Origin: Acidimicrobiia bacterium
GTDB taxonomy: Bacteria > Actinomycetota > Acidimicrobiia > Acidimicrobiales > Poriferisodalaceae
Direction of reading: 5' to 3'
Assembly (NCBI GenBank): GCA_022821985.1
Contig: JAJECP010000030.1
Span: forward strand, 1 to 64,000
Length of the DNA: 64,000 nt
Below, piece by piece: positions 7,449 through 22,917 of the stretch. The first letter of the stretch is position 1, and each line of letters begins with the position of its first letter. Position numbers and translations under genes: made by a program. Under the pieces are notes generated by a model. It was given only the letters and a program-made list of their open reading frames with translations, had not been told where the DNA came from and made no database searches.

Positions 7449-9155
7449 TCAAGCGGGTTCGGCAGACTGCCGTCGGGCCGTGGCTTCCTCGGCGCCCAGG
7501 CGTCCCAAGATGCCCTCAGACAGATCCACGTGCGTCAGCATCGCAGCCACTGCCCGGTGTCCTGCGGTCTCGGCGATCTGGCGATACATCTCGGTCACGA
7601 CCCGCCGGTAGTCCTCGTGCCCCTGAGGTTGTGATCGCAGCTCGATGAGGTGCATGGCCTCACGAGCGTTGAACTGCATGCTGTAGCGCACGCGATAGGC
7701 CATCGACACGGCATACGACGCCTCGAGCGTCCCAACCGCCTCGGCAAGCGTGTCGTACAGCTCGGCTGACAGCTCCATCACCTCGTCGTAGGCCTCTCCC
7801 CCGCCGGCTGCATCCACGAGCGCGGGCACGGAGTATCCGTGCTGTGGGCTCAGCGGCTGCCATTCGATGGTGAGCAGCCGGTGCCGCTGGAGGTCGCGGA
7901 AGCTGCCGTAGTCGGCGAGCACATCGAACCGGTAGTCGAGGCGTTCGAGCGCCCGGCCCGGCCGGTGGCGCCGGTTCGTCCGTTCGCCGCAGTATCGCTT
8001 CACCAGCTCCATGCGCTCGGCCTCGGTCATCTGGGCCACACGGGCAGCGATCTGCGGTTCTCCCAGCGACGTGTAGGGGTACAGCATGGCCGCCAGCATC
8101 TTGTCCTCGCCGGAGGGATCCCAGTCGGTCAGCTGGACCTCGGGCACCGGCTCCGGTTCGTCCGCGGCGAAGAGGTCTGCAGCGAATTCCGACATCGCAA
8201 CCCGGTTGGCCTCGAGGTAGTCCGACCACACGACGCCCCGGTCGGGTTGGTCGACGCGCCGCAGGAACGAGGGGATGACTTTGCGCAACTCGGTCAGCAT
8301 CATCTGGGCGTAGCTGCGTGCCTCGGGCAGCGGGTGCGCTCGCATCCGCAGCAGGAGTGCTTCGTAGGCCTGTCCGCTGCCGAAGATGCCGACGTTGGAC
8401 AGGCTGGCCGCCGGCAACAGACCCCTCGCCGCGTCGAATGCCTGTGCACGGATGGCCCGCCGGCGCGCGAGGTCGCTGCCGGCGGCGGCACCGGCTGTCG
8501 CATCGGGATGCTCGGTGAGCCAACCGGTCATGCGGCGGACCATGTCGCCGTAGGCGTCGAACATGCGGTCCACGTCGCCGACGAATCGAGTCCCCGCACG
8601 CGAGCCCATCACCTCGGGCGGCCGGTGGTACCGGTACCGCCCTTGGACTCGCTCGTCGTAGGCGAGGTAGCGGGTGGACTGCTCGAGGTACGACATCAGC
8701 CGCCCTCGTTCGAGGATCTTGGTGAGCAGGTTGGAGGCCTGCTCGCATGCAAGATGCACGGCTCCGAGCTGCGCCACCGAGTCGTCGCCGTATTCCACGA
8801 ACACGCGCTGGTACAGCTGCTCGGCGCGGGCGACGCCCACCGTGGCGTCGATGGTCTCGTCGCCGGAGATGTCGAGGTCGTCCACGAATTCGTCCAGCAG
8901 CAGCCGCCGCAGGCTCTTGTGCGTCCTGGAGTAACGGGCGAAGAGCGCCCCCTTCACCACTTCAGGCAGGTTCACGAGTGCGAAGACCGGCTGGCGCAGA
9001 TTCGTCACATAGCGCCGCAGAATGTCCTGCTCGGCAGACGTGAACGTCTCGGTGGTGTAGTGGATCACCGGATCACCGGCAGGTCGGGTCGGCGGAGACA
9101 CTGCGCCGATGGTATGGCCCATGGGCAAGCGGCAAGGGGATGTCACAGGGCGCAC
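7449..9155 (-). CDS. Tandem ThyX-like (FAD-dependent thymidylate synthase-related) protein
   Basis: The protein is up to 568 residues and carries two regions resembling ThyX, the flavin-dependent thymidylate synthase fold, which is normally about 220-250 residues. The first half has a YGDDSVAQLG segment followed by ERGRLMSYLEQSTRYLAYDE, matching the end of the ThyX motif (EQSTRY) but with the leading RHR reduced. The second half has DLQRHRLLTIEWQPLSPQHGY, which keeps RHR but loses the S-N-E-S-R part, and ends with a ThyX-like RSQPQGHEDYRRV helix. Neither half carries a full canonical motif, so true thymidylate synthesis is doubtful. The start is uncertain: GTG 9155, ATG 9122 or a later GTG. 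It lies 14 nt downstream of the lipid-kinase-like gene. Confidence 0.72.
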   Translation of the reverse strand: MRPVTSPCRLPMGHTIGAVSPPTRPAGDPVIHYTTETFTSAEQDILRRYVTNLRQPVFALVNLPEVVKGALFARYSRTHKSLRRLLLDEFVDDLDISGDETIDATVGVARAEQLYQRVFVEYGDDSVAQLGAVHLACEQASNLLTKILERGRLMSYLEQSTRYLAYDERVQGRYRYHRPPEVMGSRAGTRFVGDVDRMFDAYGDMVRRMTGWLTEHPDATAGAAAGSDLARRRAIRAQAFDAARGLLPAASLSNVGIFGSGQAYEALLLRMRAHPLPEARSYAQMMLTELRKVIPSFLRRVDQPDRGVVWSDYLEANRVAMSEFAADLFAADEPEPVPEVQLTDWDPSGEDKMLAAMLYPYTSLGEPQIAARVAQMTEAERMELVKRYCGERTNRRHRPGRALERLDYRFDVLADYGSFRDLQRHRLLTIEWQPLSPQHGYSVPALVDAAGGGEAYDEVMELSAELYDTLAEAVGTLEASYAVSMAYRVRYSMQFNAREAMHLIELRSQPQGHEDYRRVVTEMYRQIAETAGHRAVAAMLTHVDLSEGILGRLGAEEATARRQSAEPA

Positions 9156-9169
9156 GGAACAGCGTCAAC

Positions 9170-9799
9170 TCAGAACACGATCACCGCTGCGTCGGGTCGG
9201 ATTGCGAGAATCAGCTCGCGGCATCTGCCGACCCGCTCGCCATCGAGCCAGAGTCCGAGCGGCCGGTCGAACCGATGCCACCAGCGCTCCACACGCCGCA
9301 CGGCGATTGCCGGATGCGGCACGTGGGCGCCGGACCGCAGCCGCCGACGGGCCAGCGCTCTTTGGGCCACGCTGAGCCCTGGCTGGTCCAGACCGGTGCT
9401 GAGCACGTGCAGCCGTCCGTCGTTGGGATGGGCTGCGGGTGCCAGTCGCCACGGCCCGAGCGATTCGGCACTCATGGCAACCACGACGGGGCCTCGCCAC
9501 CACGAGTTGCGCGCGATGGCCCCGACGCAAGCCCAGTGCGTCTCGCCGTCCGCAGTTACCTCGATGAGGTCAATGGGCGCTGTTCGCGCGTGTCCGGAAT
9601 GCAGGCGATCCGCACCGCCTGCCGGTGCGCCCACCACGCGCCACAGGTCGCCGCCGACCACGCCGACCGGCGCCGCCGGCGCGTCACCGGTGCGCTGGCA
9701 GGTGGTCAACCGGCGCAATTCGGCATTGCTGCTGGCGATCGGCGCCCCATCGGGCAGCATCGCTGCGGTTCCCCACGGCTCGTTGCGCCGGACCGTCAC
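9170..9799 (-). CDS. Lone diacylglycerol kinase/YegS C-terminal domain protein
   Basis: This 209-residue protein resembles the C-terminal beta-sandwich domain of diacylglycerol/sphingosine-type lipid kinases. Visible marks are WRLAPAAHPNDGRLHVL (equivalent to the APxAxxxDGxLxV strand), a LRSGAHVPHP segment and LWLDGERVGRCRELILAIRP (the D-G-E catalytic-base region). The N-terminal NAD-kinase-like domain with GGDGT is absent. The start is fixed by a GTGA overlap with the upstream helicase stop (GTG at 9799); the frame stays open upstream, but that stretch is antisense-like and Arg-rich. It may bind lipid or work with a separate catalytic partner. That role is inference. Confidence 0.66.
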   Translation of the reverse strand: MTVRRNEPWGTAAMLPDGAPIASSNAELRRLTTCQRTGDAPAAPVGVVGGDLWRVVGAPAGGADRLHSGHARTAPIDLIEVTADGETHWACVGAIARNSWWRGPVVVAMSAESLGPWRLAPAAHPNDGRLHVLSTGLDQPGLSVAQRALARRRLRSGAHVPHPAIAVRRVERWWHRFDRPLGLWLDGERVGRCRELILAIRPDAAVIVF

Positions 9800-12192
9800 G
9801 TGAGCCTGCGCGTGCGTGTCACCACCGGCAACGACACGAAGCCGTCTCCCGGCGCCGCGGTGACAGATTCCCCCACCCGGCCATCGGAGACTCGGGCAGC
9901 TGCAGCGACGACACCGTGGTCGAGTGCCGAACAGGCATCGGCTGCGGTGCGCCGCGTGCGCTGCTGGGAGGCAACGCCTGCGATCCGGTCGACGAGATCG
10001 ATGAGCTGGCGCATCTGGCGAACGAAATCGCCGCCAGAGGGCACTTGGTCGCCCCCCGCATCGCCGTGCCACAGATCGGTGTATGCCGTCCCTCCAGCCC
10101 AGGCATGGGCAATGGCGAAGAAGGCTGCGTCGGGCGCGCGCGACGGCGCCACGCTGTGCTGTCGCTCAGCGCTGTTGATCTGTGACGCCAGCTCGAACAT
10201 GTGCGCTGCCCTCTCGCGGGAGTCGTTGTCGGGGTAGCGGGGCGCCGGCGGCGGCTGGCTGCTGCGATGTTCGTAGGTCAGCACCGACACCAGGCCGGCG
10301 AGTTGAGCGGGCGCCACACCGTCGAAAACGCCGTCGCGCAAGCACAGCACCGTCAGCAGATCGCACTCGTGGAAGACGGACTTCAGGCAGTCACCGGTGG
10401 CGGTCAGCGACCAGCCATCCGCACAGCCGAAGATGTTCAGCACCTCGTTGGTGGCGTCGAGCTGGCGGGCCAGCCCTCCCTTGGCGAGTTTGATCCGATC
10501 CTTCAGACGGCTCACCCGTGCTCCCACGCGCTCGGCGTGACGCTCCGCATCGACGAGTGCCCGGTCGGTGCGGCGGTCGGCAGGCCTGCCGCGCCGGTGC
10601 CGACCCGAGCCCGACGACCTCCCGCGTGCCGATGCGTGCGACTGCGAACGGCCACGACCGCCCCCCATCGACCGCAGTCGTGCCCGGGCCTCGCGCAGCG
10701 CTTTGCGTTCCACCTCGAGTTCCGCGGTCCACTGGCCGACCCGGCGATCAGCCCGCCACTGGGCGAACGATCGCTGCAACAGCTCGACTGCCTCGTCGTG
10801 GGTGCGGCTGGCAATGAGGTTGGCGACCATGTTGTACGTCGGTCGGAATGACGACTCCAGCTCGAAATCACTGCTTGCGACCAAGCGGGCCGTCTCGTCG
10901 AACGCCGTCTGCGGATGCCACAGCGTGTACGCATAACCGGTCTCGTCGATGCCGCGGCGACCCGCCCGACCGGTGAGCTGGGTGTACTCACCCGATGTCA
11001 GCAGCGCAAAGCCCTCTCCGCGGAATCGGCTGAGCTGCTCGATCACCACCGAACGGGCAGGCATGTTCACGCCCACCGCCAGCGTTTCCGTTGCGAACAC
11101 CACTGCCAGCAGTCCGGCCGAGAAGCACTCTTCGATGGCCTCCTTGAAGGCCGGTATCAAGCCTGCGTGGTGGGCCGCGACACCGGCCGTGAGATGCCCC
11201 AGCCACTCGTCGTAGCCGAGCGCGTCGAGATCACTGGCCTCGAGATCCGCTGTGTGCGCCGCCGCGATCTGGCGCACGCGATGCTGCTGAGCGGCATCCA
11301 GAAACGCCGCCCCCTCAGCGACGAGCGTCCGGGCAGCGTCGTCGCAACCCTGACGGGAGAACACGAACACGATCGCCGGCAGCCTGGCGCTGGCAGCCAG
11401 ATGCTCGACGATCTCCGAGCGGCGCGGACGGGCCGGTCGCGCGCCTGCCCGTCGATGCCGGCGCTGGCCGCCGGATCGGGAACGTGCCTGCTCGACTATC
11501 CGTTCGATCTCGGGATTCGGGCGGCCGTCCCGCAGCGTCGGCAGATCCACCAAACGGCGGCTGTGCCGCTCGTAGAGCAGGAAGCGATCTTCCAGGGGCA
11601 CCGGACGCTGTGAGCACACCACCGCCGTGCACCCGCCTGCAGTGGCTTCGACCCACGACGCGAGCTCGTTGGCATTGCTGACCGTGGCCGACAGGCACAC
11701 CAGTCGCATATGCGGCGGCGTGCTGATGATGACCTCTTCCCAGACCGCTCCCCGGTAAGGATCCTGCAGGTAGTGGACCTCGTCCAGCACGGCCATGCCG
11801 AACTGCGCGATGTGCGATGAGCCGGCGTACATCATGTTGCGCAGCACTTCGGTGGTCATGACCACGACATCGGCATCGGGGCAGATGACGTTGTCGCCGG
11901 TGAGCAGGCCTACCCGTTCGGATCCCAGCCAGGAACGCAGCTCGCGCAGCTTCTGGTTCGACAACGCCTTGGTGGGCGCTGTGTAGGCCGCACGTTGGCC
12001 GGCCTCGAGTGTCGCTGCGATGCCGTACTCCGCAACGAGGGTCTTGCCCGACGATGTCGGCGCAGCGACGAGCACCGACTTGCCCCGATCCAGCGCGGCG
12101 AACGCCTCGGTTTGAAAGCCGTCGGGCGAGATGCTCCGTGCACTCAAGAGCTCCGCGAACAGCGTTGGCGCTGCGGTCCCGTTCGCAGTCAC
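9796..12192 (-). CDS. helY: Ski2/Mtr4-like DEAD/DEAH-box RNA helicase (HelY family)
   Basis: Superfamily 2 helicase of 798 residues, probably acting in RNA processing or decay. Motifs in order: AAPTSSGKT (Walker A), LLTGD, DEVHYLQD (DEVH box), LSATVSN (motif III), and in the second RecA domain FVFSRQGCDDA, ATETLAVGVNMPAR and QLTGRAGRRGID (motif VI). A basic linker rich in Arg, Gly and Ser (around RGRSQSHASARGRSSG) splits the C-terminal part, followed by a helical domain. It is shorter than mycobacterial HelY (about 900 residues). The GTG start overlaps the tatC stop as GTGA. The tatA-tatC-helY arrangement is, from memory, typical of actinobacteria. Confidence 0.88.
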   Translation of the reverse strand: MTANGTAAPTLFAELLSARSISPDGFQTEAFAALDRGKSVLVAAPTSSGKTLVAEYGIAATLEAGQRAAYTAPTKALSNQKLRELRSWLGSERVGLLTGDNVICPDADVVVMTTEVLRNMMYAGSSHIAQFGMAVLDEVHYLQDPYRGAVWEEVIISTPPHMRLVCLSATVSNANELASWVEATAGGCTAVVCSQRPVPLEDRFLLYERHSRRLVDLPTLRDGRPNPEIERIVEQARSRSGGQRRHRRAGARPARPRRSEIVEHLAASARLPAIVFVFSRQGCDDAARTLVAEGAAFLDAAQQHRVRQIAAAHTADLEASDLDALGYDEWLGHLTAGVAAHHAGLIPAFKEAIEECFSAGLLAVVFATETLAVGVNMPARSVVIEQLSRFRGEGFALLTSGEYTQLTGRAGRRGIDETGYAYTLWHPQTAFDETARLVASSDFELESSFRPTYNMVANLIASRTHDEAVELLQRSFAQWRADRRVGQWTAELEVERKALREARARLRSMGGGRGRSQSHASARGRSSGSGRHRRGRPADRRTDRALVDAERHAERVGARVSRLKDRIKLAKGGLARQLDATNEVLNIFGCADGWSLTATGDCLKSVFHECDLLTVLCLRDGVFDGVAPAQLAGLVSVLTYEHRSSQPPPAPRYPDNDSRERAAHMFELASQINSAERQHSVAPSRAPDAAFFAIAHAWAGGTAYTDLWHGDAGGDQVPSGGDFVRQMRQLIDLVDRIAGVASQQRTRRTAADACSALDHGVVAAAARVSDGRVGESVTAAPGDGFVSLPVVTRTRRLT

Positions 12193-13034
12193 AGCGTCGG
12201 TCCGGCCGCAGCGGGGCTCTGCTCGCTCTCCTTCGGCGACCGGCGGAATCGGCGCCGCAGCGGGGGTTCACCGCTGCGGCGGCGGAGGACGAGGTAGCCG
12301 ACCAGGATCGACAGCTCGTAGAACACGTACAGCGGCACCGACAGCGCCGCGAGTGTGATCGGATCTCCCGACGGCGTGATGATCGCCGCGCCGGCCACGA
12401 TTCCGACGATGGCGTAGCGGCGGGCCCGATTCAGCTGCCGCGGCTCGACGATGCCGGCGAGCTGGGCGAAGATCAGCACGATCGGGAACTCGAACCCGAT
12501 GCCGAACGCCAGCATCATGAACGTCACCAGGCCGAGGTAGGCACCGGGTCCGAGCAGCGGGTCGACGGCGTCGCCGCTGACTGCGATCAGGAAGTCCAGC
12601 GCCCGTTCGAACGTGAAGTAGGCCAAGACTGCACCGGCCGAGAACAGCACGAACCCCGCAATCACGAACGGGATCGCCCACCGCTTCTCCCGGCGGTCCA
12701 GCGCCGGCGTGATGAACCGCCACAGGTGCCACAGCAGCACCGGCATGGCCAGTACCACGCCCAGGTAGGCCGACACCTTGATGCGGGTGCGGAATCCCTC
12801 CAGCGGCGCGGTGATCACCAGGCTGCACGGCCGGTCGATCTCCTGGGCTACCAGCACATTGCAGTACGGCGGCAGGAATACCTCGCGGAGCAGCCAGTCA
12901 TAGACGATCAGCCCGACGACCATGCCAAGCCCGATGGCCACGATGCTCCAGATGAGCCGGTTCCGCAGCTCGGCGACATGATCCCAGAAACCCATCACCT
13001 CCGGCCGGGGCCGGCGGCGCCACCGGAGCCTCAC
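12189..13034 (-). CDS. tatC: Twin-arginine translocase subunit TatC
   Basis: Integral membrane receptor for folded Tat substrates (281 residues). It has the conserved cytoplasmic N-terminal segment FWDHVAELRNRL, then six hydrophobic segments. FRTRIKVSAYLGVVLAMPV and FGIGFEFPIVLI (with the functionally important F-E region) match the family, as does the ARRYAIVGIVAGAAIITPSGD closing segment. A charged C-terminal tail (RRRFRRSPKESEQ) faces the cytoplasm. The GTG start overlaps the tatA stop, and its stop overlaps the helicase start, so three genes are chained by 4-nt overlaps. Confidence 0.95.
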   Translation of the reverse strand: MRLRWRRRPRPEVMGFWDHVAELRNRLIWSIVAIGLGMVVGLIVYDWLLREVFLPPYCNVLVAQEIDRPCSLVITAPLEGFRTRIKVSAYLGVVLAMPVLLWHLWRFITPALDRREKRWAIPFVIAGFVLFSAGAVLAYFTFERALDFLIAVSGDAVDPLLGPGAYLGLVTFMMLAFGIGFEFPIVLIFAQLAGIVEPRQLNRARRYAIVGIVAGAAIITPSGDPITLAALSVPLYVFYELSILVGYLVLRRRSGEPPLRRRFRRSPKESEQSPAAAGPTL

Positions 13035-13393
13035 GCAGCGCCGTCTCTGGTCGCGTCATCGCCAGCCGGGTCGCTAGCTCTGGGCTGCTTGATCTCGGCT
13101 TGGTCACCCTCCGGCTGTTCCGCTGCAGCGTTCGGCTGCTTGGTCTCGGTATCGGCGCCTTCCAGCTCAACCTCCGAATCAACTGACGCAGCGGGACGGG
13201 CGGGCGGCGATGCAGGTTCGACTATGGGCGGCGAGATCGTGGCATCCATTTCCTGGCGAACGGTGGTCGAGAAGTCGCGCACCTGCCGGAAGGCGCGGCC
13301 GATGCCCCGGATTGCGCCCGGCAGCCGCTTGGGGCCGAGCACGATCAGCGCCACGAGCACGATGATCAGCACCTCGTTGGGCTGCAGGCTCAC
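13031..13393 (-). CDS. tatA: Twin-arginine translocase subunit TatA/TatB
   Basis: Single-span component of the Tat pore (120 residues from GTG 13393). A short hydrophobic helix (EVLIIVLVALIVLG) is followed by the GPKRLP hinge and the amphipathic helix AIRGIGRAFRQVRDF, then an acidic disordered tail. The hinge reads L-G-P-K-R-L-P, so TatA and TatB cannot be told apart with certainty. The start is chosen because an open frame upstream is Cys/Arg-rich and implausible, and because a TACCAT -10 element sits exactly 6 nt before this GTG, as expected for a leaderless transcript. It is first in the tatA-tatC-helY run. Confidence 0.9.
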   Translation of the reverse strand: MSLQPNEVLIIVLVALIVLGPKRLPGAIRGIGRAFRQVRDFSTTVRQEMDATISPPIVEPASPPARPAASVDSEVELEGADTETKQPNAAAEQPEGDQAEIKQPRASDPAGDDATRDGAA

Positions 13394-13399
13394 GGCTCG

Positions 13400-13405
13400 A
13401 TGGTA
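13400..13405 (-). promoter_or_regulatory. Leaderless -10 element (TACCAT) of tatA
   Basis: TACCAT on the minus strand fits the actinobacterial -10 consensus TANNNT and ends 6 nt before the GTG start of tatA. That would place the first transcribed base at or next to the start codon. No Shine-Dalgarno sequence precedes the gene, which agrees with a leaderless message. Confidence 0.5.
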
Positions 13406-13478
13406 GAACCCCGACCCTGCGCAGCGGTTCTGTGCCGCGCACGCACAGGCGGACCCGTGTGCAGCGACTGCTAACCCA

Positions 13479-13757
13479 TCAGAAGGGCAGCACCCGGCGA
13501 GCGGCCCACCGCACCGCCAGGCCGAGCACCCGCTCGGCAGTGGCCTGGCGCAGCGACGGCACGTCCAGGCTGTCGATTGCGGCGCGTGCTCGCATGACGT
13601 CAGCGCGCACCGCCGCAGCGGCATCTGCGATCGACGCCAGGCTCTGGGCCGTCGCACGCAACTCCATCGCCAGCCGTCGGATCATGACGATGCTCACCAC
13701 GGCGAGCACGCCGAAGGCAACGATGGGCAGCAGCCATATCGCCGGCACAAGTGGCAC
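13479..13757 (-). CDS. Small single-span membrane protein
   Basis: A 92-residue protein that I do not recognise. An N-terminal transmembrane helix (about residues 7-26, LLPIVAFGVLAVVSIVMI) is followed by RR, then an Ala-rich helix with heptad-like spacing (RLAMELRATAQSLASIADA, continuing through AAVRADVMRARA) and a basic end. It could be a membrane-anchored coiled coil. Its GTG start is only 9 nt from the divergent GDPD start, so at least one of the two genes must lack a leader or start further in. Confidence 0.55.
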   Translation of the reverse strand: MPLVPAIWLLPIVAFGVLAVVSIVMIRRLAMELRATAQSLASIADAAAAVRADVMRARAAIDSLDVPSLRQATAERVLGLAVRWAARRVLPF

Positions 13758-13766
13758 GATAGAGGC

Positions 13767-14528
13767 GTGCCCCCTCAGCCATTGCCGTCACTGCGCACGC
13801 CTCCGATCGCGTTCGCACACCGCGGCGGGCGAGCGCACGGCCCCGACAATGCCCTTGACACGTTCGCCCTGGCCCTGGATATGGGAGCGACGGGCCTCGA
13901 GACTGACGTCTGGTTGAGCCAGGACGGTCACCCCATGCTGGACCATGACGGCATTGCTTGGCACCGGGGCGTGCGCCGTGCCTTCAGCTCGTTGCAACGG
14001 GAGCGCATCGGTGACGACATTCCCACGCTTGCGGACATGTACAAAGCATGCGGCACCGACTTCGAGCTGTCGGTCGATCTCAAGGACCCGGCGGCGGCAG
14101 ATGCCGTGATCTCTGCTGCTCGTGCCGCGGGCGCGGAGGACCGCCTGTGGCTGTGCCACGGCGACTGGGATCTCCTGGTCGACCTGCGCGGGCGCACGTC
14201 TGCCCACATCGTCGATTCGACCCGGGTGCGGCGCATCAAGGAGGGCCCCGAGCGTCGGGCTGCGGCGATGGCCGTTGACGGCATCGATGCCGTCAACCTC
14301 CCCGCCAAGGACTGGACTGGCGGCCTCGCGGCCCTCTTCCACCGATTCGAACGCCTCTGCTTCGGGTGGGACGTGCAGCACACCCGCCTGGCGACAGCGC
14401 TGCGGGACATGGGCCTCGACGGCCTGTACGGCGATCACGTCGACCGTCTGCTGGCCGGCCTCGAATCATCGAAGACTCCGGGCGGGTCCGCCCCTGCGGG
14501 CGATATCTGCGAGACACAGCCCGCCTGA
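13767..14528 (+). CDS. Glycerophosphodiester phosphodiesterase family protein
   Basis: Probably cleaves glycerophosphodiesters to glycerol 3-phosphate and an alcohol (253 residues). The GDPD signature is present: FAHRGG near the N-terminus (His/Arg), PDNALDTFALALDMGATGLETDVWLSQDG (E-x-D metal ligands) and LDHD (second His). ELSVDLKDP supplies the distal acidic site. No signal peptide is visible, so it is probably cytoplasmic. The start is a GTG with little room upstream. It converges on lepB, separated by a hairpin. Confidence 0.85.
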   Translation: MPPQPLPSLRTPPIAFAHRGGRAHGPDNALDTFALALDMGATGLETDVWLSQDGHPMLDHDGIAWHRGVRRAFSSLQRERIGDDIPTLADMYKACGTDFELSVDLKDPAAADAVISAARAAGAEDRLWLCHGDWDLLVDLRGRTSAHIVDSTRVRRIKEGPERRAAAMAVDGIDAVNLPAKDWTGGLAALFHRFERLCFGWDVQHTRLATALRDMGLDGLYGDHVDRLLAGLESSKTPGGSAPAGDICETQPA

Positions 14529-14550
14529 CCGTGATCGGCGTCGATCGCGG
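14529..14550. terminator. Hairpin between convergent GDPD and lepB genes
   Basis: CCGTGATCG and CGATCGCGG flank a GCGT loop: a 9-bp stem with one G-T pair, starting right after the GDPD stop codon. No T-run follows, as is common in high-GC actinobacteria. Its position between convergent genes suggests a bidirectional terminator. Confidence 0.45.
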
Positions 14551-14560
14551 CGCTGGAGAT

Positions 14561-15151
14561 CTACAAGCCGCCGAGGCGGGTGGGCGGCCAGAAACGTGCA
14601 AATGCCCTCCCAACGATCTCGCTCTCGGGAATCGCGCCGAAGACGCGGCTGTCCTGGCTTGAACGGCGGTTGTCGCCCATGACGAACACGTAGCCGGCAG
14701 GCACCAGCACTGGGCCGAAGTCACGCGTGTACACCTCGGTCGACAGGTAATGCTCATCCACCGGCGACCCATCGATGATGAGCCTGCCATTCACCGCTTC
14801 GACCTGCTGGCCGCCGACCGCCACGACTCGCTTGATGAGCTCTGCAGTCTGCGCCGGTTGCATCGAAGGCGGGGTGCGAAACACGACAACATCGCCGGGT
14901 TCGGGATCCCCGATGCGGTAGCTGAGCTTGGAGACCAGCAGTCGATCCCCGATCTCGAGCACGGGCTCCATCGACTCGGACGGGATGTAGAACGCCGCGA
15001 TGAGAAACGTCCGCATCAGCAGCGCGAGCGTCACCGCGGCCAGCAGCACCCATGTCCACGACAGCAGGCTGCGCGTGCGCCGGCTCATAGCCCGCCGAAC
15101 GAGCGGCTGCCGAGGCGGCGGCAGATCCTCGGGTTCGTCGGGAATGCTCAT
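14561..15151 (-). CDS. lepB: Signal peptidase I
   Basis: Membrane-bound serine/lysine protease that removes signal peptides from secreted proteins (196 residues). After a proline-rich cytoplasmic lead there is one transmembrane helix (SWTWVLLAAVTLALLMRTF). IPSESMEP then carries the nucleophile (Ser60) and LIKRVVAVGGQ the general base (Lys107). The closing box GDNRRSSQDSRVFG is intact. The ATG at 15151 is preferred because it overlaps the DUF3866 stop as ATGA; an in-frame start 45 nt upstream would overlap that gene more. Confidence 0.94.
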   Translation of the reverse strand: MSIPDEPEDLPPPRQPLVRRAMSRRTRSLLSWTWVLLAAVTLALLMRTFLIAAFYIPSESMEPVLEIGDRLLVSKLSYRIGDPEPGDVVVFRTPPSMQPAQTAELIKRVVAVGGQQVEAVNGRLIIDGSPVDEHYLSTEVYTRDFGPVLVPAGYVFVMGDNRRSSQDSRVFGAIPESEIVGRAFARFWPPTRLGGL

Positions 15152-16257
15152 GCCGATGCCGCCAGCCACGCTGCTGCCGCCCCCAGCCACAGGCAAGCCT
15201 GCTCGTCGCTCTCCAGCGGGCGGCCCATGGACCTCACGCTCAGACCGCTGCCAGCAAGGGCATCTGCGACTGCAATCGGCTCTGCTCTGAAGGCCCGCTC
15301 TCCCAGCTCATCGATCCATGAGGCATCGCCCGCCGTCGGGTCGAGCTTGCTGCTCGCCGGGACTGGAACGACGGTCCGAGTGGGCGCCAGCGCTGCCATC
15401 GCCCGAGTGTGATGGCTTATGCCACGGTGCCGTAGGCGCTCGTCGACCGAAGATGCACGTGCAGCCAGCGCTGTCGCCGCTCCGAGCCCGTCCAGCACGG
15501 CTGCGTGGCCGACGAGATCCAGCGCCGAGAAGCCCAATGGGCTCGCAGTGCCGAGGTGCCCTAACCCCGGCGCGACGACCACACGCTGGATGTCCCGCTC
15601 CGCCAGTGCGGCCACGCCAGAGGCAACGGTGACTGCCTCGATGGGGGCCCCGAAGGCCTGCCCAGCACTGACCGCCGTCGCGATCATTCCTTGCTCCAAG
15701 CACGTGGCAGCGAGATCGCTGAGCACGAACGGCAGCGCTCCGCCATCGGTCATGACATAGCCCGGCGCCTCGCCGGAAACACCGTGGACTGTTGCGGCCA
15801 GCGCCAGCGCATGGCTGTGCAGCACGCACAGCACCACCCGCACGCCCGCGAGCGATGGCAGGGCCAGACCGATGTCAGCGGGCCGCGCCTCACGAGGATC
15901 AGCGCCATCGGGCGCTGTCTCTACAAGGGCAGTGCGATCCGTTCCGGCCCCGCCGGCCGCCTCCTCGAATGCGTCGACGGGCAGCTGCTCAGCCAGATAA
16001 CGGGCCTTCATGACGCGCCCCGGCCCCCGGGCGCCCCCGAATGGCGACGTGAGGTTCGTGTGCACCACATGTGCCCCGCCGGTGCCAAGGCCGAGATCCA
16101 TTGCCGACGTGTTCACGAGCAGCTCGTCGCCAGCCGCGACCGGGCCGCACAAGTCCGTGAGCGCATACGCCTCGCTGCCGTCGGACAGGGTCACCCGCGC
16201 CAACCCGGGCCGCACGTCACGCACCTCGGCGGCTCGTAGGCGCGCAAAGCGCGGCAT
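15148..16257 (-). CDS. DUF3866 family protein
   Basis: A 369-residue protein of the uncharacterised DUF3866 family, found in Gram-positive bacteria. Features include an N-terminal strand-rich part (GDELLVNTSAMDLGLGTGGAHVV), a GGARGPGRVMKARY motif, then two alternating alpha/beta parts with GYVMTDGGALPF and VVVAPGLGHLGTASPLGFSAL. The final third has HRGISHHTRAM. No membrane segment or known catalytic motif is evident. It is translationally coupled to lepB by an ATGA overlap and lies 50 nt downstream of pafA. The function is unknown. Confidence 0.82.
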   Translation of the reverse strand: MPRFARLRAAEVRDVRPGLARVTLSDGSEAYALTDLCGPVAAGDELLVNTSAMDLGLGTGGAHVVHTNLTSPFGGARGPGRVMKARYLAEQLPVDAFEEAAGGAGTDRTALVETAPDGADPREARPADIGLALPSLAGVRVVLCVLHSHALALAATVHGVSGEAPGYVMTDGGALPFVLSDLAATCLEQGMIATAVSAGQAFGAPIEAVTVASGVAALAERDIQRVVVAPGLGHLGTASPLGFSALDLVGHAAVLDGLGAATALAARASSVDERLRHRGISHHTRAMAALAPTRTVVPVPASSKLDPTAGDASWIDELGERAFRAEPIAVADALAGSGLSVRSMGRPLESDEQACLWLGAAAAWLAASA

Positions 16258-16307
16258 CTGCTGCTTTCAGCCAGCTGAGCGCCGGCGCACACGGTCCACG
16301 GTGCACA

Positions 16308-17675
16308 TCACAGCGACTCGATCAACTTGTCGACACGCTCGTCGTGCGAACGGAACGGGTCCTTGCACAAGACGGTTCGCTGCGCCTGGTCGTTGAGCTT
16401 CAGATGCACCCAGTCCACGGTGTAGTCACGGCGCCGAGCCTTGGCCTCGCGAACGAACGCCCCGCGCAGCCGGGCCCGCGTCGTCTGGGGCGCTTCCTCG
16501 GTGGCCCGACGCACATCGGCGTCATCCAAGACTCGCTCGACCAATCCGCGTCGCTGCATCACATAGAAGACGCCTCGCGTCGAGTGGACGTGGTGGTACT
16601 GCAGGTCCAGCAGTGCGATGTGCGGGTCGTCGAAGCCGACCCCAGCGCGGTCGGCATAGCTCGTGAGCAGCTTGTGCTTGATGACCCAGTCCACCTCGCG
16701 GTCGAGCTGCAGCGGGTCATCAGCGATGGCTGTCATCACGTGCTCCCACATCTGCAGAGCACGCGACTCCTCCTCGGTGAGATCGTTCGTCTCGGCAAAG
16801 CGCAGGGCTCGTTCCAGGTACTCCGACTGGATGTCGAATGCGCTCACTTCACGCCCATTGGCCAGGCGCACCTTGCGTCTGCAGGTGATGTCGTGGCTGA
16901 TCTCGCGGATCGCCCGGATCGGGTTCTCCAGCGTCATGTCCCGCAGCACCACGGCGGGATCCTCGAGCATGCGCAGCATGAGTGCAGCCGCGCCGATCTT
17001 GAGGAATGACGTGTACTCGCTCATGTTCGAGTCGCCGACGATGACGTGCAGGCGCCGGAAGCGCTCAGCATCGGCGTGCGGCTCGTCGCGGGTGTTGATG
17101 ATCGGGCGGCTGCGGGTCGTCGCGCTCGACACGCTCTCCCAGATGTGCTCCGCTCGCTGGGTAATGCAATACCGGGCGCCCTTGGCCGTGTTGAGCACCT
17201 TGCCTGCGCCGGCGTAGATCTGCCGAGTCACCAGGAACGGGATCAGCACCTCGGCGTAATTCGAGAAGTCGTCAGCGCGGCTGGTCAGGTAGTTCTCGTG
17301 GCACCCGTAGCTGTTGCCGGCCGAGTCGGTGTTGTTCTTGAACAGGAAGATCGTGCCGTTGAACGCCTCCTCGGCCAGTCGCTCGGTGGCGCTGGCAACG
17401 AGCTGTTCGAGGATCCGCTCCCCCGCCCGGTCGTGGCACACCACGTCATAGACGGAATCGCATTCGGGCGTGGCGTATTCGGGATGGCTGCCGACGTCGA
17501 GATACAGGCGCGCCCCGTTTGCCAGGAACACATTGCTGGATCGCCCCCACGACACGACCCGGCGGAACAGGTAGCGCGCCACCTCGTCGGGGCTGAGGCG
17601 CCGTTGTCCCCGCAGTGTGCACGTGACGCCGTACTCGTTCTCGACACCCATGATGCGCCGCTGCACGGCGCTCAC
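16308..17675 (-). CDS. pafA: Pup-protein ligase PafA
   Basis: Ligates the C-terminal glutamate of Pup to substrate lysines using ATP, marking proteins for the proteasome (455 residues). The N-terminus [14 protein letters not shown] carries the nucleotide-site Glu (about E12). [19 protein letters not shown] carries the catalytic Asp (about D60) typical of the carboxylate-amine ligase fold shared with Dop. CHENYLTSR and NTRDEPHAD match the Pup/nucleotide groove. The length matches characterised PafA. It follows prcA by 12 nt, closing the dop-pup-prcB-prcA-pafA run. Confidence 0.96.
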
Positions 17676-17687
17676 CGTACTTCCGAT

Positions 17688-18410
17688 CTAGGAATCTTCC
17701 TGATCGGAGTCGTCGTCGCCGAGGGCGGCCGCCACCTCGTCGTCCTCGAGACGCCGGAAGCACCGGCGGCGGTGTGTTGCGTCTTCGAGGTTCGACTCGA
17801 GCAAGGCCACCTCGAGATCCGGTGCAGCGATCTCACGCTCGGGACCGGCGAGCGCCGCGCGAGCCAGCCGGATGGCTGCGTCGGCATCGAGCTCAGGGTC
17901 GTAGCCCTCAGCCACCCGCTCGCGCACCGCGTCGGCATCGCCCCCGATGCAGCAGTACGCCTCCTCGTCCATGACGGTCCCGTCGTACTGGATCCTGTAG
18001 AGCTGGTTGGCCTCTTCGCCGATCCCCACCTCCACCACCACGATCTCGACCTCGAGCGGCTTGAGCTCATGGGTGAAGAACTGCCCCAGCATCTGCGCGT
18101 ACTGGTTGGCGAGGCTGCGAGCTTCCACGTCTGAACGGGAGTACTGGTAGCCCTTCAGCTCAGCGTGGCGGACACCCGCGATGCGCAGCTGATCGAACTC
18201 GATGTAGCGGCCCACACCACCGAAGGCGATCCGGTCGTAGATTTCCGACACCTTGCGCAGCGTTGCGCTGGCGTTCTCCGCAACCAGGGCGATGCCGCTG
18301 CCGTATTCCAGCGTCACCAGCGAGCGTCCCCGGGCGATTCCCTTGCGGGCATAGTCGGCCCGGTCTTGCATGAGCTGCTCAGGGCTGACGTACATCCCGG
18401 GCATGCTCAT
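17688..18410 (-). CDS. prcA: Proteasome subunit alpha
   Basis: Outer-ring subunit of the 20S core particle (240 residues). It has the gating N-terminus MYVSPEQLMQDRADYARKGI, the alpha-type GIALVAENASATLRKVSEIYDRI region and YSRSDVEARSLANQYAQ. The C-terminus is acidic (DDDSDQEDS), as in other actinobacterial alpha subunits. It lacks the N-terminal catalytic Thr, consistent with alpha. Start and prcB stop overlap as ATGA, giving equal-stoichiometry coupling. Confidence 0.96.
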   Translation of the reverse strand: MSMPGMYVSPEQLMQDRADYARKGIARGRSLVTLEYGSGIALVAENASATLRKVSEIYDRIAFGGVGRYIEFDQLRIAGVRHAELKGYQYSRSDVEARSLANQYAQMLGQFFTHELKPLEVEIVVVEVGIGEEANQLYRIQYDGTVMDEEAYCCIGGDADAVRERVAEGYDPELDADAAIRLARAALAGPEREIAAPDLEVALLESNLEDATHRRRCFRRLEDDEVAAALGDDDSDQEDS

Positions 18411-19297
18411 GGCGACACCTCGCTGCGGCTGCCTCCGGCAGAACTGAGATCGCCGCCGGCTGAGTCGGCGCGGGCTGCTCCCCCGCTCCCGCCGCCAGAG
18501 AGCTCGGCTTGCAGATCAGCGAATACAGCCCCTGACTCGGCGTCGCTGAGCTGGCGGAAGCCCTCGCTCCCGATTGCCGCGAGCACCGGGTAGATGCCGC
18601 GCACGGGATCGGGACCGCCGGTGGCGCTGTCCTCGTCGGCAGCGTGCCACAACGCCTGCACGCTGAGCGTCAGTGCTTCGGGCTCGCTCAAGTCGTCACG
18701 GAAGCCGAGCTTCAGGACCGTCCCGGCGTGCAGGCTGCCCGAGCCGGCCGTGGCATAGTCCTGCTCCTCGTAGCGGCCACCGGTCACGTCGTACTGGAAG
18801 AGCCTGCCCCTTCCGTCGGCGGGGTCGAATCCGGCGAAGATCGGCACTACCGGGAGGCCGCGCATCGCCTGGGGCAGGTGTGCCCGAAGCATCTCGGCCA
18901 GCTGGTTCGCCTTGCCCTCCAGGCTCAGCGGCTTGCCTTCGATCTTCTCGTAGTACTCGAGCTGCAGCTGGAAGAGGCGGACCATCTGCACGGCCGGGCC
19001 TGCGGCACCGGCAATGGCCACCGCCGAATAGGAATCGGCCGGGAAGACCTTGCGCATGTCGCGGTGACTGATGAGGTTGCCACTGGTGGCCCGCCGATCG
19101 CCCGCGACAACCACTCCGTCGGAGCTGCGCACCGCCAGCACGGTGGTGGCGTGAGAACCCTCAAGGGAGCCGAAACCCCCCTCCGCGGCAGGAACCTGCG
19201 CGAGACCGGCAAATGGCTCGCTGCCGGTGCGCCGCAGCAGTTCGAGGAAGCTCGCCCCCGGATCGTCCCCTGGGGCGAAGAAGGGCATGGGGGTCAC
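18407..19297 (-). CDS. prcB: Proteasome subunit beta
   Basis: Catalytic inner-ring subunit (296 residues). A propeptide of 50 residues ends at ...GSLEGSHA and is predicted to be removed autocatalytically, exposing Thr51 (TTVLAVR) as the N-terminal nucleophile. The conserved VVVAGDRRATSGN region and the lysine and Asp residues of the active site follow. An unusual Gly/Ser/Ala-rich C-terminal tail (ELSGGGSGGAARADSAGGDL) is present. The GTG start overlaps the pup stop as GTGA. Confidence 0.96.
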   Translation of the reverse strand: MTPMPFFAPGDDPGASFLELLRRTGSEPFAGLAQVPAAEGGFGSLEGSHATTVLAVRSSDGVVVAGDRRATSGNLISHRDMRKVFPADSYSAVAIAGAAGPAVQMVRLFQLQLEYYEKIEGKPLSLEGKANQLAEMLRAHLPQAMRGLPVVPIFAGFDPADGRGRLFQYDVTGGRYEEQDYATAGSGSLHAGTVLKLGFRDDLSEPEALTLSVQALWHAADEDSATGGPDPVRGIYPVLAAIGSEGFRQLSDAESGAVFADLQAELSGGGSGGAARADSAGGDLSSAGGSRSEVSP

Positions 19298-19485
19298 TCG
19301 CCGCCCTTCTGCACGTAGTTCTTCACGAACTCCTCGGCGTTGGTCTCGAGCACATCGTCGATCTCGTCGAGCAGGTCGTCGAGTTCCGCCTTCAGTTCGG
19401 TCGCTCCTTCAGACGAGGTGTCCTGCGGTGCGGGACTCTCGGCTTCCCTCGGAGCCGACCGTCGCATCTGCTCGCGTTCTGCCAT
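19294..19485 (-). CDS. pup: Prokaryotic ubiquitin-like protein Pup, ending in Glu
   Basis: Small disordered tag (63 residues from the ATG at 19485, preceded by a strong GGAGGAGG). The ARC-binding helical region ELKAELDDLLDEIDDVLETN is followed by AEEFVKNYVQKGGE. The last codon is GAG (Glu), not CAG (Gln). Mycobacterial Pup ends in Gln and must be deamidated by Dop, so this Pup should be ligation-ready as made. The gene sits between dop and prcB. Confidence 0.95.
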   Translation of the reverse strand: MAEREQMRRSAPREAESPAPQDTSSEGATELKAELDDLLDEIDDVLETNAEEFVKNYVQKGGE

Positions 19486-19571
19486 CTCGGGCCTCCTCCG
19501 GTGTCGATTGCTTGGGTCTCGAATGCGTGAGAGTTCCGATTGCCGCTTGCGTTCGAGTCTGAACCTGGCGG

Positions 19572-21080
19572 CTAATTTCCCAGCCGGCGCAACAGCTCGG
19601 CTGCGTCCCGGCACTCGTCCAACAAGCTACCCACGTGCGCTTGGGTTCCTCGCAGCGGTTCGAGCATCGGTACGCGACGCAGCGGATCAGTTCCGATGTC
19701 GAACACCATCGAGTCCCAGTTGGCGGCCACGATCTCATCCCCGAACTTGTCGAGGCAACGACCCCGGAAGTAGGCACGTGTCGTCGGCGGCGGCACCGAG
19801 ACCGCTTCGTCCACTTCGTCGTCGGTGGTGACCCGCTCAAGTCCGACGCGTCGGGCCAGCGACTTGGACGGTCGCAGGTCGTGATACTGCAGGTCGAGGG
19901 CGGCGAGCTTCGGATCGTCCCAGTCGAGGTCGTGCCGCTCGGCGAAAGCCTCGTACAGGCGCAGCTTCGCCACCCAGTCCAACTGCGTCGCGAGCCCCAT
20001 CGGATCCGATTCCAGCCCAGTGAGCATGGCTTCCCAGCGATCCAGGATGTCATTGCCGACGTCGTCGCCGCCGACGGGATCCAGACCATGGCTCTGCGCA
20101 TACTTCCGGGCCAGGTCCAGGTACTCCCATTGGACGTCGATGGCCCGCATGCGACGGCCGTCGACCAGTTCGATCAGCCCCGACAGGGCGGTGTCGAAGC
20201 TCACCTGACGGAGCGCCGCCACTGGCACGAGAGGCGTCAGGGGCTCAGGCACGAAGTCGTCGTCGATCATCGCCAGCACCAGCGAGGTCGTGCCCACCTT
20301 GAGGTACGTCTGCAGCTCGCTCATGTTGGCGTCGCCGATGATGACGTGCAGTCGCCGATACTTGCGCGTGTCGGCGTGCGGCTCATCGCGGGTGTTGACG
20401 ATCGGCCGCTTGAGCGTGGTCTCTAGCCCGACTTCCTCCTCGAAGAAGTCCGCACGCTGGCTGATCTGGAACGGCCGGTTCCCGAACGGTGCCGGCGAGC
20501 GGTCATCCATCGGGACCTCGACGCCCAGCTTGCCGGCGCCGCAGAAGATCTGGCGGGTCACGAAGAACGGCAGGATGTGCGTCACCACCCTGCCAAAGGG
20601 CACATCGCGGTCCAGCAGGTAGTTCTCGTGGCAGCCGTAACTGTTGCCCTTGCCATCGCTGTTGTTCTTGTGGATCACCAGCTCTTCGTCGTCGGGCAAG
20701 AGGTTGTTGGCAGCCTGCATGGACCGGATGAGGATCTCCTCCGCGGCCCGGTCGTACACGACGCATTGGCGTGCGTCTGAGCACTCTGGAGTCGACAGCT
20801 CAGGATGCGCGTGGTCGACGTAGTAGCGGGCGCCGTTGGTCAGCACGGCATTGACCAGGTGCGTTTCGATCTCGGGCGCCAGCGCGTCGAACTCGTTGAA
20901 GCCCCTCGCGTCGGCGCCGGGCTGCTCGTCTTCGAAGTCCCAGCTGACGCGCTGGCACAGGAAGCCGTTGACGTAAGCGTTGATGATCATCGACGACGCC
21001 GCCACGGGATTGGAGTCGCCCGTGCAGCGATGGATGATGCCGAACTCAGTCTCGATGCCAACGACCTTGTGAACCGCCAC
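19572..21080 (-). CDS. dop: Depupylase/Pup deamidase Dop
   Basis: Removes Pup from substrates and, where Pup ends in Gln, deamidates it (502 residues). The N-terminus VVGIETEFGI carries the ATP/metal-site Glu (E10). YYVDHAHPELSTPEC holds the catalytic Asp (about D89). [17 protein letters not shown] and [19 protein letters not shown] are shared with PafA. Between them lies the longer Dop-loop region (DFEDEQPGADARGFNEFDALAPE), which distinguishes it from PafA. GTG start; a TAGGGT box lies 8 nt upstream. The gap to pup is 86 nt. Confidence 0.94.
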   Translation of the reverse strand: MAVHKVVGIETEFGIIHRCTGDSNPVAASSMIINAYVNGFLCQRVSWDFEDEQPGADARGFNEFDALAPEIETHLVNAVLTNGARYYVDHAHPELSTPECSDARQCVVYDRAAEEILIRSMQAANNLLPDDEELVIHKNNSDGKGNSYGCHENYLLDRDVPFGRVVTHILPFFVTRQIFCGAGKLGVEVPMDDRSPAPFGNRPFQISQRADFFEEEVGLETTLKRPIVNTRDEPHADTRKYRRLHVIIGDANMSELQTYLKVGTTSLVLAMIDDDFVPEPLTPLVPVAALRQVSFDTALSGLIELVDGRRMRAIDVQWEYLDLARKYAQSHGLDPVGGDDVGNDILDRWEAMLTGLESDPMGLATQLDWVAKLRLYEAFAERHDLDWDDPKLAALDLQYHDLRPSKSLARRVGLERVTTDDEVDEAVSVPPPTTRAYFRGRCLDKFGDEIVAANWDSMVFDIGTDPLRRVPMLEPLRGTQAHVGSLLDECRDAAELLRRLGN

Positions 21081-21088
21081 CGCGCGAG

Positions 21089-21094
21089 ACCCTA
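21089..21094 (-). promoter_or_regulatory. Candidate -10 element (TAGGGT) of the dop-pup-prc run
   Basis: TAGGGT on the minus strand ends 8 nt before the dop GTG start, and no clear Shine-Dalgarno lies between them. It fits TANNNT and would give a message with almost no leader. It lies in the 73-nt gap after arc, so dop-pup-prcBA-pafA could be transcribed apart from arc. Confidence 0.4.
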
Positions 21095-21153
21095 GCCCTC
21101 AGGCCCGCGAACCCCGCAGAGCAGCACCTGGCGCCCGTTGGCCGTGCAGTGCT

Positions 21154-22917
21154 CTACAGGTACTGGCTGGTCTGCACCCGTTCGATGGCTCGGCCGCCGA
21201 GCGCATCGCTCTCGTCGGGATCGACGAGCGTCCGGATGAACACGATCCGTTCGCCCTTCTTGCCGGAGATCTTCGCCCAGTCGTCGGGGTTCGTCGTGTT
21301 GGGCAGGTCTTCGTGCTCGCGGAACTCCTGGCGGATCGAGCCCATGAGGTCGTCCAGCCGGATGCCGCTGCTGCCGGTGGCAAGCGACCGCTTGATGGCG
21401 TTCTTCTTGGCCCGGCGCACGATGTTCTCGATCATGGCCCCCGACGCGAAGTCCTTGAAGTACATGACTTCCTTGTCGCCGTTCTGGTAGGTGACCTCGA
21501 GGAATCGGTTGAGGTCGTCGGGGCGGTACATCTCGTCGACGGTCCGCTCGATCATGATCCGGACGGCCTTGTGGGGATCGCCGCCTCCGAGGTCGGCGAC
21601 TTCCATCGGGTCGATCGGCAGCGTCGGCGTGAGATACGTGCTGAAGATCGACAGTGCCGCCTGCTCGTCGGGACGGTTGATCTTGATCTTCACGTCGAGT
21701 CGGCCAGGGCGCAGGATCGCCGGATCGATGAGGTCTTCCCGGTTCGAGGCGCCGATCACGATCACGTTGCGCAGGCCCTCGACGCCGTCGATCTCCGCGA
21801 GCAGCTGGGGCACGACCGTCGACTCCATGTCGGAGCTGATGCCGCTGCCGCGCGTGCGGAACAGCGACTCCATCTCGTCGAAGAAGACGATCACCGGCCA
21901 GCCCTCGGAAGCCTTCTCTCTGGCCCGCTCGAAAATGCGCCGGATCTGGCGCTCGGTCTCGCCCACGTACTTGTTGAGCAGCTCGGGACCCTTGATGTTG
22001 ATGAAGAAGCTGCGTGCGCCCTGCTGGCCGGAGACCTCCCCCACCTTGGCTGCCAGCGAGTTGGCGACCGCCTTCGCGATCAGCGTCTTGCCGCACCCGG
22101 GCGGGCCGTAGAGCAGGATGCCTTTCGGGGCCGGGAGGTCGTAGGTGCGGAACAGGTCCTGGTGCAGGTACGGCAGCTCCACGGCATCGGTGATGAGCTC
22201 GATCTGCGTGTCCAGCCCGCCTATGTCTTCATAGGTGACGTCTGGCACTTCCTCGAGCAGCAGATCGTCCACTTCGGGGCGTGGCAGGCGCTCGAGCACG
22301 ATGTTGGAGCGCACGTCGAGCAGCAAGTTGTCGCCCGACCGCAGCGGCTCGTCGCGCAGGTCGCCTGCGAGCTCCACGATGCGTTCCTCGTCGGCGCGAC
22401 CCGTGACCAGCGCACGGAAGCCGTCGGAGAGCACCTCGTTCAGCGTCACCACCTCGCCGGACGTCTCGGGCCCGCGGGCCAGCACGATGTTGTACGACTC
22501 GTTCAGCACCACCTCGCTGCCTTCGACCAGCTCGGTCTCCGCCAAGTCGGGGTGCAGGGCCACGCGCATCTTGCGCCCGCTGGCGTGCACATCCGCCGTG
22601 CCGTCGTCGTTGCGGGACAGGAACGTGCCGTAGGCCGACGGCGGCTGGGTCAGCTTGTCGACCTCTTCGCGCAGGGCTGCGATGTGCTCTCGCGCCTCGC
22701 GCAGGGTGTAGGTCAGCTTCTCGTTCTGCGAGACCGCAGCCGACAGCTGACCCTTCGCCTCGAGCAGGCGTTCTTCGAGCGTGCTGACCCGCGCCGGCGT
22801 GTCGGCCAGCTTGCGCCGGAGCAGCGCGACCTCTTCCTCGAGCGTGCGCATGCGGCTGCGGAGCACGCCCGCATCGGCTGCGCTGCTGCGCTGGGACTCC
22901 TCGTCGCCCTGGTCCAT
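21154..22917 (-). CDS. arc: Proteasome-associated AAA ATPase ARC/Mpa
   Basis: Hexameric unfoldase that recognises Pup and feeds substrates into the 20S core (587 residues). In order: an N-terminal coiled coil for Pup binding (about 20-90), tandem OB domains (about 95-220), and an AAA module with Walker A GPPGCGKT (271-278), Walker [11 protein letters not shown] (DE at 347-348) and the second region [20 protein letters not shown]. The C-terminus SQYL has the penultimate Tyr used to dock on the proteasome. It is upstream of dop on the same strand and divergent from a ferredoxin gene. Confidence 0.96.

Follow-up and report, generated by a model that had tools for sequence, protein, structure and literature searches.

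Can a protein built of two ThyX-like domains, neither of which carries the whole ThyX motif, supply a cell with thymidylate? The question is raised by a gene in the window, the 64,000-nucleotide stretch of an Acidimicrobiia bacterium contig (JAJECP010000030.1, assembly GCA_022821985.1) that we analyzed, and which the first-pass annotation had described as a double ThyX-like protein at 7449-9155. Thymidylate synthase is an essential enzyme. Comparisons of sequence and gene content lead us to read the protein, with a probability of about 0.8, as a flavin-dependent thymidylate synthase in which two ThyX domains have been fused and sub-functionalized, and a working thymidylate synthase is the most likely role that we can assign to it. 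The gene and its two domains are as follows.

7449..9155, minus strand, stop included: double ThyX gene, 568 amino acids, Pfam PF02511
8160..9068, minus strand: N-half ThyX domain, residues 1-303, assigned by profile match to canonical ThyX and by an AlphaFold2 model
7452..8159, minus strand: C-half ThyX domain, residues 304-539, assigned by profile match to canonical ThyX and by structural match (VIA Z 16.3)

The start codon is the GTG at 9155, and a second GTG lies at 9068, where conservation among the relatives starts; residue numbers of the double ThyX count from the latter, and numbers marked Tm refer to the ThyX of T. maritima (TM0449). The Pfam family Thy1 (PF02511) matched the whole protein in two stretches (E = 7.1e-35, 121 bits; curated cut-off 24.8), and a six-frame search of the genome gave two separate Thy1 matches in the gene, of 61.3 and 59.1 bits and both above the same cut-off. 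The double architecture stands, and its coordinates are correct. Against the NCBIfam equivalog model for thyX (TIGR02170), the protein scored 54.5 bits, below the cut-off of 87.9, and a search of PDB sequences with the whole protein gave no match at E 0.01. BLAST found no similarity between the N-half and the C-half, and the probability of a match between their profiles was only 4%; the halves are thus recognized through canonical ThyX, with profile matches of E 5.5e-9 for the N-half and 9.1e-13 for the C-half, and not through each other.

Structure prediction, which the first-pass annotation had proposed as a check, gave a predicted ThyX fold for both halves. In the full-length model (mean pLDDT 78.1), the blocks of the C-half mostly reached 86 to 97, residues 90-122 and 124-132 fell below 50, and the C-half matched T. 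maritima ThyX with the VIA Z of 16.3 given above (rmsd 2.5, 192 aligned). Modeled alone with AlphaFold2, the N-half had a pLDDT of 91.7 and a pTM of 0.89 and matched Mtb ThyX with a VIA Z of 14.5 (rmsd 4.0, 200 aligned), unrelated rows staying below 5. The N-half match leans on its alignment, as canonical ThyX was included there: the 77 rows were the window protein, 58 other N-halves of the 80 listed and 18 canonical ThyX of the 28 listed. The profile match of the N-half is separate from the model but was built from part of the same loci.

The canonical ThyX motif is RHR-x7-S, as in the printed T. maritima alignment, and it is absent from each single domain of the protein. According to the first-pass annotation, the first half keeps the end of the motif (EQSTRY) without RHR, and the second keeps RHR and loses the N-E-x-S-x-R part; both observations hold throughout the relatives. 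The N-half motif, ERGRLMSYLEQSTRY, reads RGR-x7-S, with glycine in place of the RHR histidine, and the C-half motif, QRHRLLTIEWQPLSP, has RHR intact and the E-x-S-x-R-Y part replaced, reading RHR-x7-P. The pattern is general in relatives, where the first arginine of the N-half RGR is usually tryptophan (W 82, R 40; n = 122). The positions that matter for the argument are listed below with their retention.

8667..8711, minus strand: N-half motif ERGRLMSYLEQSTRY, RHR lost (R/W-G-R), with E129, S131, R133 and Y134 kept at Tm E86, S88, R90 and Y91
7878..7898, minus strand: C-half RDLQRHR, in which R395, H396 and R397 are Tm R78, H79 and R80; R395 and H396 in 132/132, R397 in 122/122
7845..7877, minus strand: C-half substrate-recognition loop replaced (LLTIEWQPLSP for E-x-S-x-R-Y); E86 in 0, S88 in 12, R90 in 0 and Y91 in 0 of 132
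7635..7637, minus strand: C-half R478, Tm R174 (dUMP activation), 132/132
8424..8426, minus strand: N-half R215, Tm R147 and PolB R166, a dUMP phosphate ligand, 132/132; role from the accessible part of PMC5003785, position from the printed PolB alignment
8928..8930, minus strand: N-half S47, Tm S30, folate loop, 132/132; role from the accessible part of PMC11940539
7662..7664, minus strand: C-half R469, Tm R165, FAD phosphate ligand of the third subunit, an uncertain assignment, 122/122

The 132 fused proteins are the window protein, 102 proteins of the class, 19 others of the phylum, nine from phages or plasmids and one from a viral contig. The search for relatives kept the 80 best of 180. 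Among the phylum regions 19 of 20 were double, the remaining one being dropped; 10 of 12 phage and plasmid matches were taken, two from B. licheniformis being left out, and the exclusion of a single-domain Gordonia protein gave the nine. The class proteins are redundant, with 61 of the 102 remaining at less than 90% identity. Counts with n = 122 cover the window and the genome-source proteins. That both Thy1 matches lie in the same frame was checked for these 122 proteins, the nine annotated phage or plasmid genes and the viral contig; the genome counts further below treat at least two Thy1 matches as double.

Throughout this sample, the pattern ExSxRY was found in 132/132 N-halves and 0/132 C-halves, and RH(N)R in 132/132 C-halves. 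Each of the residues at Tm E86, S88, R90, Y91, R147 and S30 was kept in the N-half of all 132 proteins, and each of those at R78, H79 and R174 in the C-half of all 132. Conversely, R147 was retained in none of the C-halves, alongside the losses in the C-half loop listed above, and the N-halves retained H79 in 0/132 and R78 in 40/132. One protein of the 132 (L099) has a loose RHR-S pattern somewhere in the N-half, away from the motif position, and no N-half has H79 there. Chance is excluded as the source of this complementary motif loss. As the pattern holds in 132 of 132 proteins, including the distant ones of Bacillota plasmids and phage, it is a split and not decay.

The residues sort in a way that is known from solved structures. 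According to the available parts of two reports, ThyX is a tetramer with sites where three subunits meet (PMC3498832, PMC11940539). For Mtb ThyX, the accessible text of a review of the structure assigns RHR and R199 to subunit A, S71 and R190 to B, and S105, R107 and Y108 to C (PMC6514825); in our mapping, R199, S71, R190, S105, R107 and Y108 are Tm R174, T55, R165, S88, R90 and Y91, respectively. In PolB, R86 and R193 come from one monomer and E94', S96', R98' and R166' from the other, as described in the part of the paper at hand (PMC5003785), and we matched the former to Tm R78 and R174 and the latter to E86, S88, R90 and R147. The accessible account of PBCV-1 ThyX places Q75 and R182 in subunit A and S88 and Q89 in B (PMC3498832). 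The sources, as far as available, disagree on one ligand: Mtb R87 is put in subunit C (PMC6514825), and PolB residue 79, which our numbering places one position beyond Mtb R87, is grouped with the other monomer (PMC5003785).

The partition in the fused proteins follows these roles, with the A set (R78, H79, R174) in the C-half and the C set (E86, S88, R90, Y91, R147) in the N-half. The split is more than a single damaged loop, since 57 positions separate Tm R147 from R90 in T. maritima ThyX and the two still sort together. Pooling the halves gives every ligand residue tested for subunits A and C; the position of Tm Q75 is changed to aspartate in the C-half (122/122). The losses thus sort by the subunit roles of the residues in solved ThyX tetramers, which supports the proposal, made in the first-pass annotation, that the fused halves share a site.

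We infer the oligomer, the geometry of its sites, the binding of FAD and dUMP and the synthesis of dTMP. Ordinary ThyX forms a homotetramer with four sites, three subunits contributing to each; two fused chains would make a ThyX-like tetramer of N, C, N' and C' with 222 symmetry. In role A, a C-half would contribute the helix bearing RHR together with the arginine that activates dUMP (Tm R78, H79 and R174). In role C, an N-half would contribute the loop for substrate recognition (E86, S88, R90, Y91), R147 as the arginine for the phosphate and, from the folate loop, S30. Of the four sites, two would then be complete for FAD, dUMP and methylene-THF, and the other two would be missing residues that they need. 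An active thymidylate synthase could also have its sites arranged otherwise, with substituted residues serving in all sites or with N-N' and C-C' pairs. The N-half indeed keeps R174 in 124/132 proteins (taking R241 as that position) and R80 in 122/122, though the shared-site scheme needs neither there, and its nearly invariant GDDSxAQ stretch is without an assigned role. Such arrangements are nevertheless improbable: an N-N' pair would be without H79 in all proteins and without R78 in most, and a C-C' pair would be without E86, R90, Y91 and R147 in all.

The third-subunit residues (Tm H53, T55 and R165) are distributed differently in different relatives. Proteins of the actinobacterial type have D53, S55 and Q165 in the N-half and R165 in the C-half; relatives from Bacillota and phage keep H53, S55 and R165 in the N-half, and the position of R469 in the C-half is W or A, as found in five distant relatives. 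That all third-subunit residues belong to the C-half was considered and rejected, since the Bacillota and phage relatives sort otherwise. A role of C-half H368 as Tm H53 is a guess. With the third-subunit role in either half, two complete sites would, we infer, still be left. The region matching this subunit includes N-half residues 94-102 (window 8763-8789), GDDSVAQLG, which are nearly invariant in the class proteins.

If the double ThyX is a thymidylate synthase, its distribution over genomes should be read against other sources of dTMP. Canonical thyA or thyX elsewhere in the genome had been suggested as a check, and a profile search of the window genome (89.87% complete) found no ThyA and no second ThyX. 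The same genome, searched at that completeness, gave no PF00265 thymidine kinase and no PF00186 dihydrofolate reductase (DHFR). Among 197 genomes of the class, 167 had at least two Thy1 matches, 10 had one and 20 had none, and ThyA was present in 4/167, 0/10 and 19/20 of these, respectively. Comparing genomes with and without Thy1 (ThyA in 4/177 vs 19/20), Fisher's exact test gave P = 1.3e-21, a value that overstates independence as the genomes are related. PF00265 was present in 83 of the 167 double genomes and absent in 84; neither ThyA nor PF00265 was found in 80 of the 167, including the single-contig genomes G003, G014 and G136. Judged by ThyA, Thy1 and PF00265, the last taken as the mark of thymidine salvage, the double ThyX is the only recognizable dTMP source in the window genome and in these 80. 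One genome, G193, had neither ThyA nor ThyX.

ThyX releases THF, so DHFR is dispensable to cells that rely on it. The rarity of PF00186 in double-ThyX genomes fits this: it was found in 3/167 genomes with at least two Thy1 matches, 1/10 with one and 9/20 with none. As a separate observation, the ThyA genomes G071, G108, G111, G127, G133, G145, G185, G189, G191 and G195, of family f43, had no PF00186 DHFR, and a route of dihydrofolate recycling is not evident in them.

These counts bear on two further explanations. The protein could be a flavoenzyme that takes a different substrate or makes a different product, as a UMP C5-methylase of the PolB kind would, dTMP coming from elsewhere; the ThyX fold can methylate UMP, as PolB shows in the accessible text (PMC5003785), both motifs deviate from canonical ThyX, and the equivalents of Q75 and H53 are changed. 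The absence of ThyA and PF00265 from the window genome and 80 of the 167 double genomes, the near-exclusion with ThyA and the dUMP-supplying genes beside the double ThyX in a phage and in Euzebya make this unlikely. Alternatively, with the full ThyX motif in neither half, the gene might be a degenerate or regulatory ThyX remnant without catalysis, and the title of PDB entry 3ge9 tells of an atypical C. glutamicum ThyX that is not needed for thymidylate synthesis. A remnant is very improbable: the complementary residues are invariant in 132/132 proteins, also at 23-26% identity, and the double ThyX replaces ThyA, whereas the C. glutamicum control genome had ThyA in the same scan and the window genome had none. 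The first-pass annotation had offered a new flavin or nucleotide function beside the shared site. With the shared site supported and the double ThyX as the sole recognizable dTMP source in the genome, that function is not needed; being the sole functional thymidylate synthase, which the annotation had counted against its proposal as a whole, would contradict the new function and fits fused domains that share a site.

In the window, the double ThyX comes after a run of Pup-proteasome, Tat and DSHCT-helicase genes and before GNAT, NUDIX and gyrA/gyrB genes.

9796-22917, minus strand: Pup-proteasome/Tat cluster, with an Mpa-like AAA ATPase, a Pup-ligase family gene, two proteasome subunits, a second Pup-ligase family gene, DUF3866, TatA, TatC and a DSHCT helicase

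None of the neighboring genes bears directly on dTMP. The helicase, GNAT and NUDIX genes named in the first-pass annotation are present as described, but its lipid-kinase domain gene matched only YegS_C, at 24.3 bits against a cut-off of 27.

The closest named relatives are from metagenome-assembled genomes of Acidimicrobiales and Acidimicrobiia, with protein identities of up to 96%. The partition of residues also holds in plasmids of Bacillus and Paenibacillus and in the jumbo phage Tunturi_5, at 23-26% identity over 84-86% of the window protein. In a FastTree phylogeny of 36 N-halves, 36 C-halves and 14 canonical ThyX, a small canonical sample in an alignment of distant sequences, the N-halves formed one clade with support of 1.0 and the C-halves one with 0.93. 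The two clades point to a single duplication and fusion before the family spread, and one such old event is, on the evidence of these sequences, the probable origin of the family. The plasmid relatives carry the NCBI label 'FAD-dependent thymidylate synthase'. In Tunturi_5 (L161, 308 kb), the distant double ThyX follows a dCMP deaminase gene with a dUTPase gene close by, and in Euzebya a dCTP deaminase gene is close to the double ThyX. The distant double ThyX of Bacillus is on plasmids of about 200 kb (L166, L168, L169), and that of Paenibacillus is in L165 and L167; in some of the Bacillota plasmids, it adjoins helicase, primase-like and DUF1257/DUF2997 genes, and these plasmids may be phage-like replicons.

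A 2009 paper by Valas and Bourne is the one account of such an architecture that we came across. In its accessible part, most of the Chloroflexi sequenced then are reported to have a domain-duplicated, uncharacterized ThyX and no other thymidylate synthase (PMC3224940). Compared by description, it has two ThyX domains per chain like the window protein, and the available text contains no residue analysis (PMC3224940). Apart from that paper, a literature search that covered few subscription journals, and that looked for ThyX in duplicated, fused or lineage-specific form, showed us neither this protein nor a description of a shared-site partition of residues by subunit role; the accessible parts of PMC5954106, PMC9931769 and PMC10733785 contain nothing on a fused double ThyX. 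As far as we found, the architecture has thus been noticed and not studied.

The double ThyX agrees with known ThyX (T. maritima TM0449, Mtb; PF02511) in the fold of both halves and, with the halves pooled, in the ligand sets of subunits A and C. It differs in having two domains per chain, the whole motif in neither half and a score below the NCBIfam equivalog cut-off. PolB, a UMP/dUMP methylase of polyoxin biosynthesis, shares the ThyX fold and the split of nucleotide ligands between subunits but has a single domain, an intact motif and a different pathway, as far as the accessible text describes it (PMC5003785). An analogue in working principle is the monomeric dUTPase of herpesviruses, in which, by the account available, a multimeric enzyme underwent gene duplication and one site is formed from the usual motifs in a chain of double size; the enzyme and its reaction are different, and one chain suffices there (PMC8961515).

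Should the shared site be real, whole bacterial lineages rely on a form of thymidylate synthase that is unstudied as far as we found, and the protein would be a natural case of sub-functionalization inside a symmetric oligomer, each residue being retained only where its position needs it. With the roles then on separate domains, point mutants could show which ThyX subunit does what. Annotation by single-domain motifs undersells such enzymes, and the curated equivalog model misses them. A more tentative and rather doubtful idea is that the old fused lineage, with members in Actinomycetota, a Bacteroidota record, Bacillota plasmids and a jumbo phage, gave up half of its ThyX sites and that the vacated N-half pocket with GDDSxAQ may have been put to a new use, such as a site for a regulatory ligand.

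The phylum region that was not double and therefore dropped (L160) contains at 297-1946 a PolB-type ThyX gene, Streptomyces-like with the genus guessed, whose RHR motif region is interrupted in frame by an intein-like insert. Its PDB matches were to PolB (4p5a) on both sides of the insert and to a DnaB intein in the middle.
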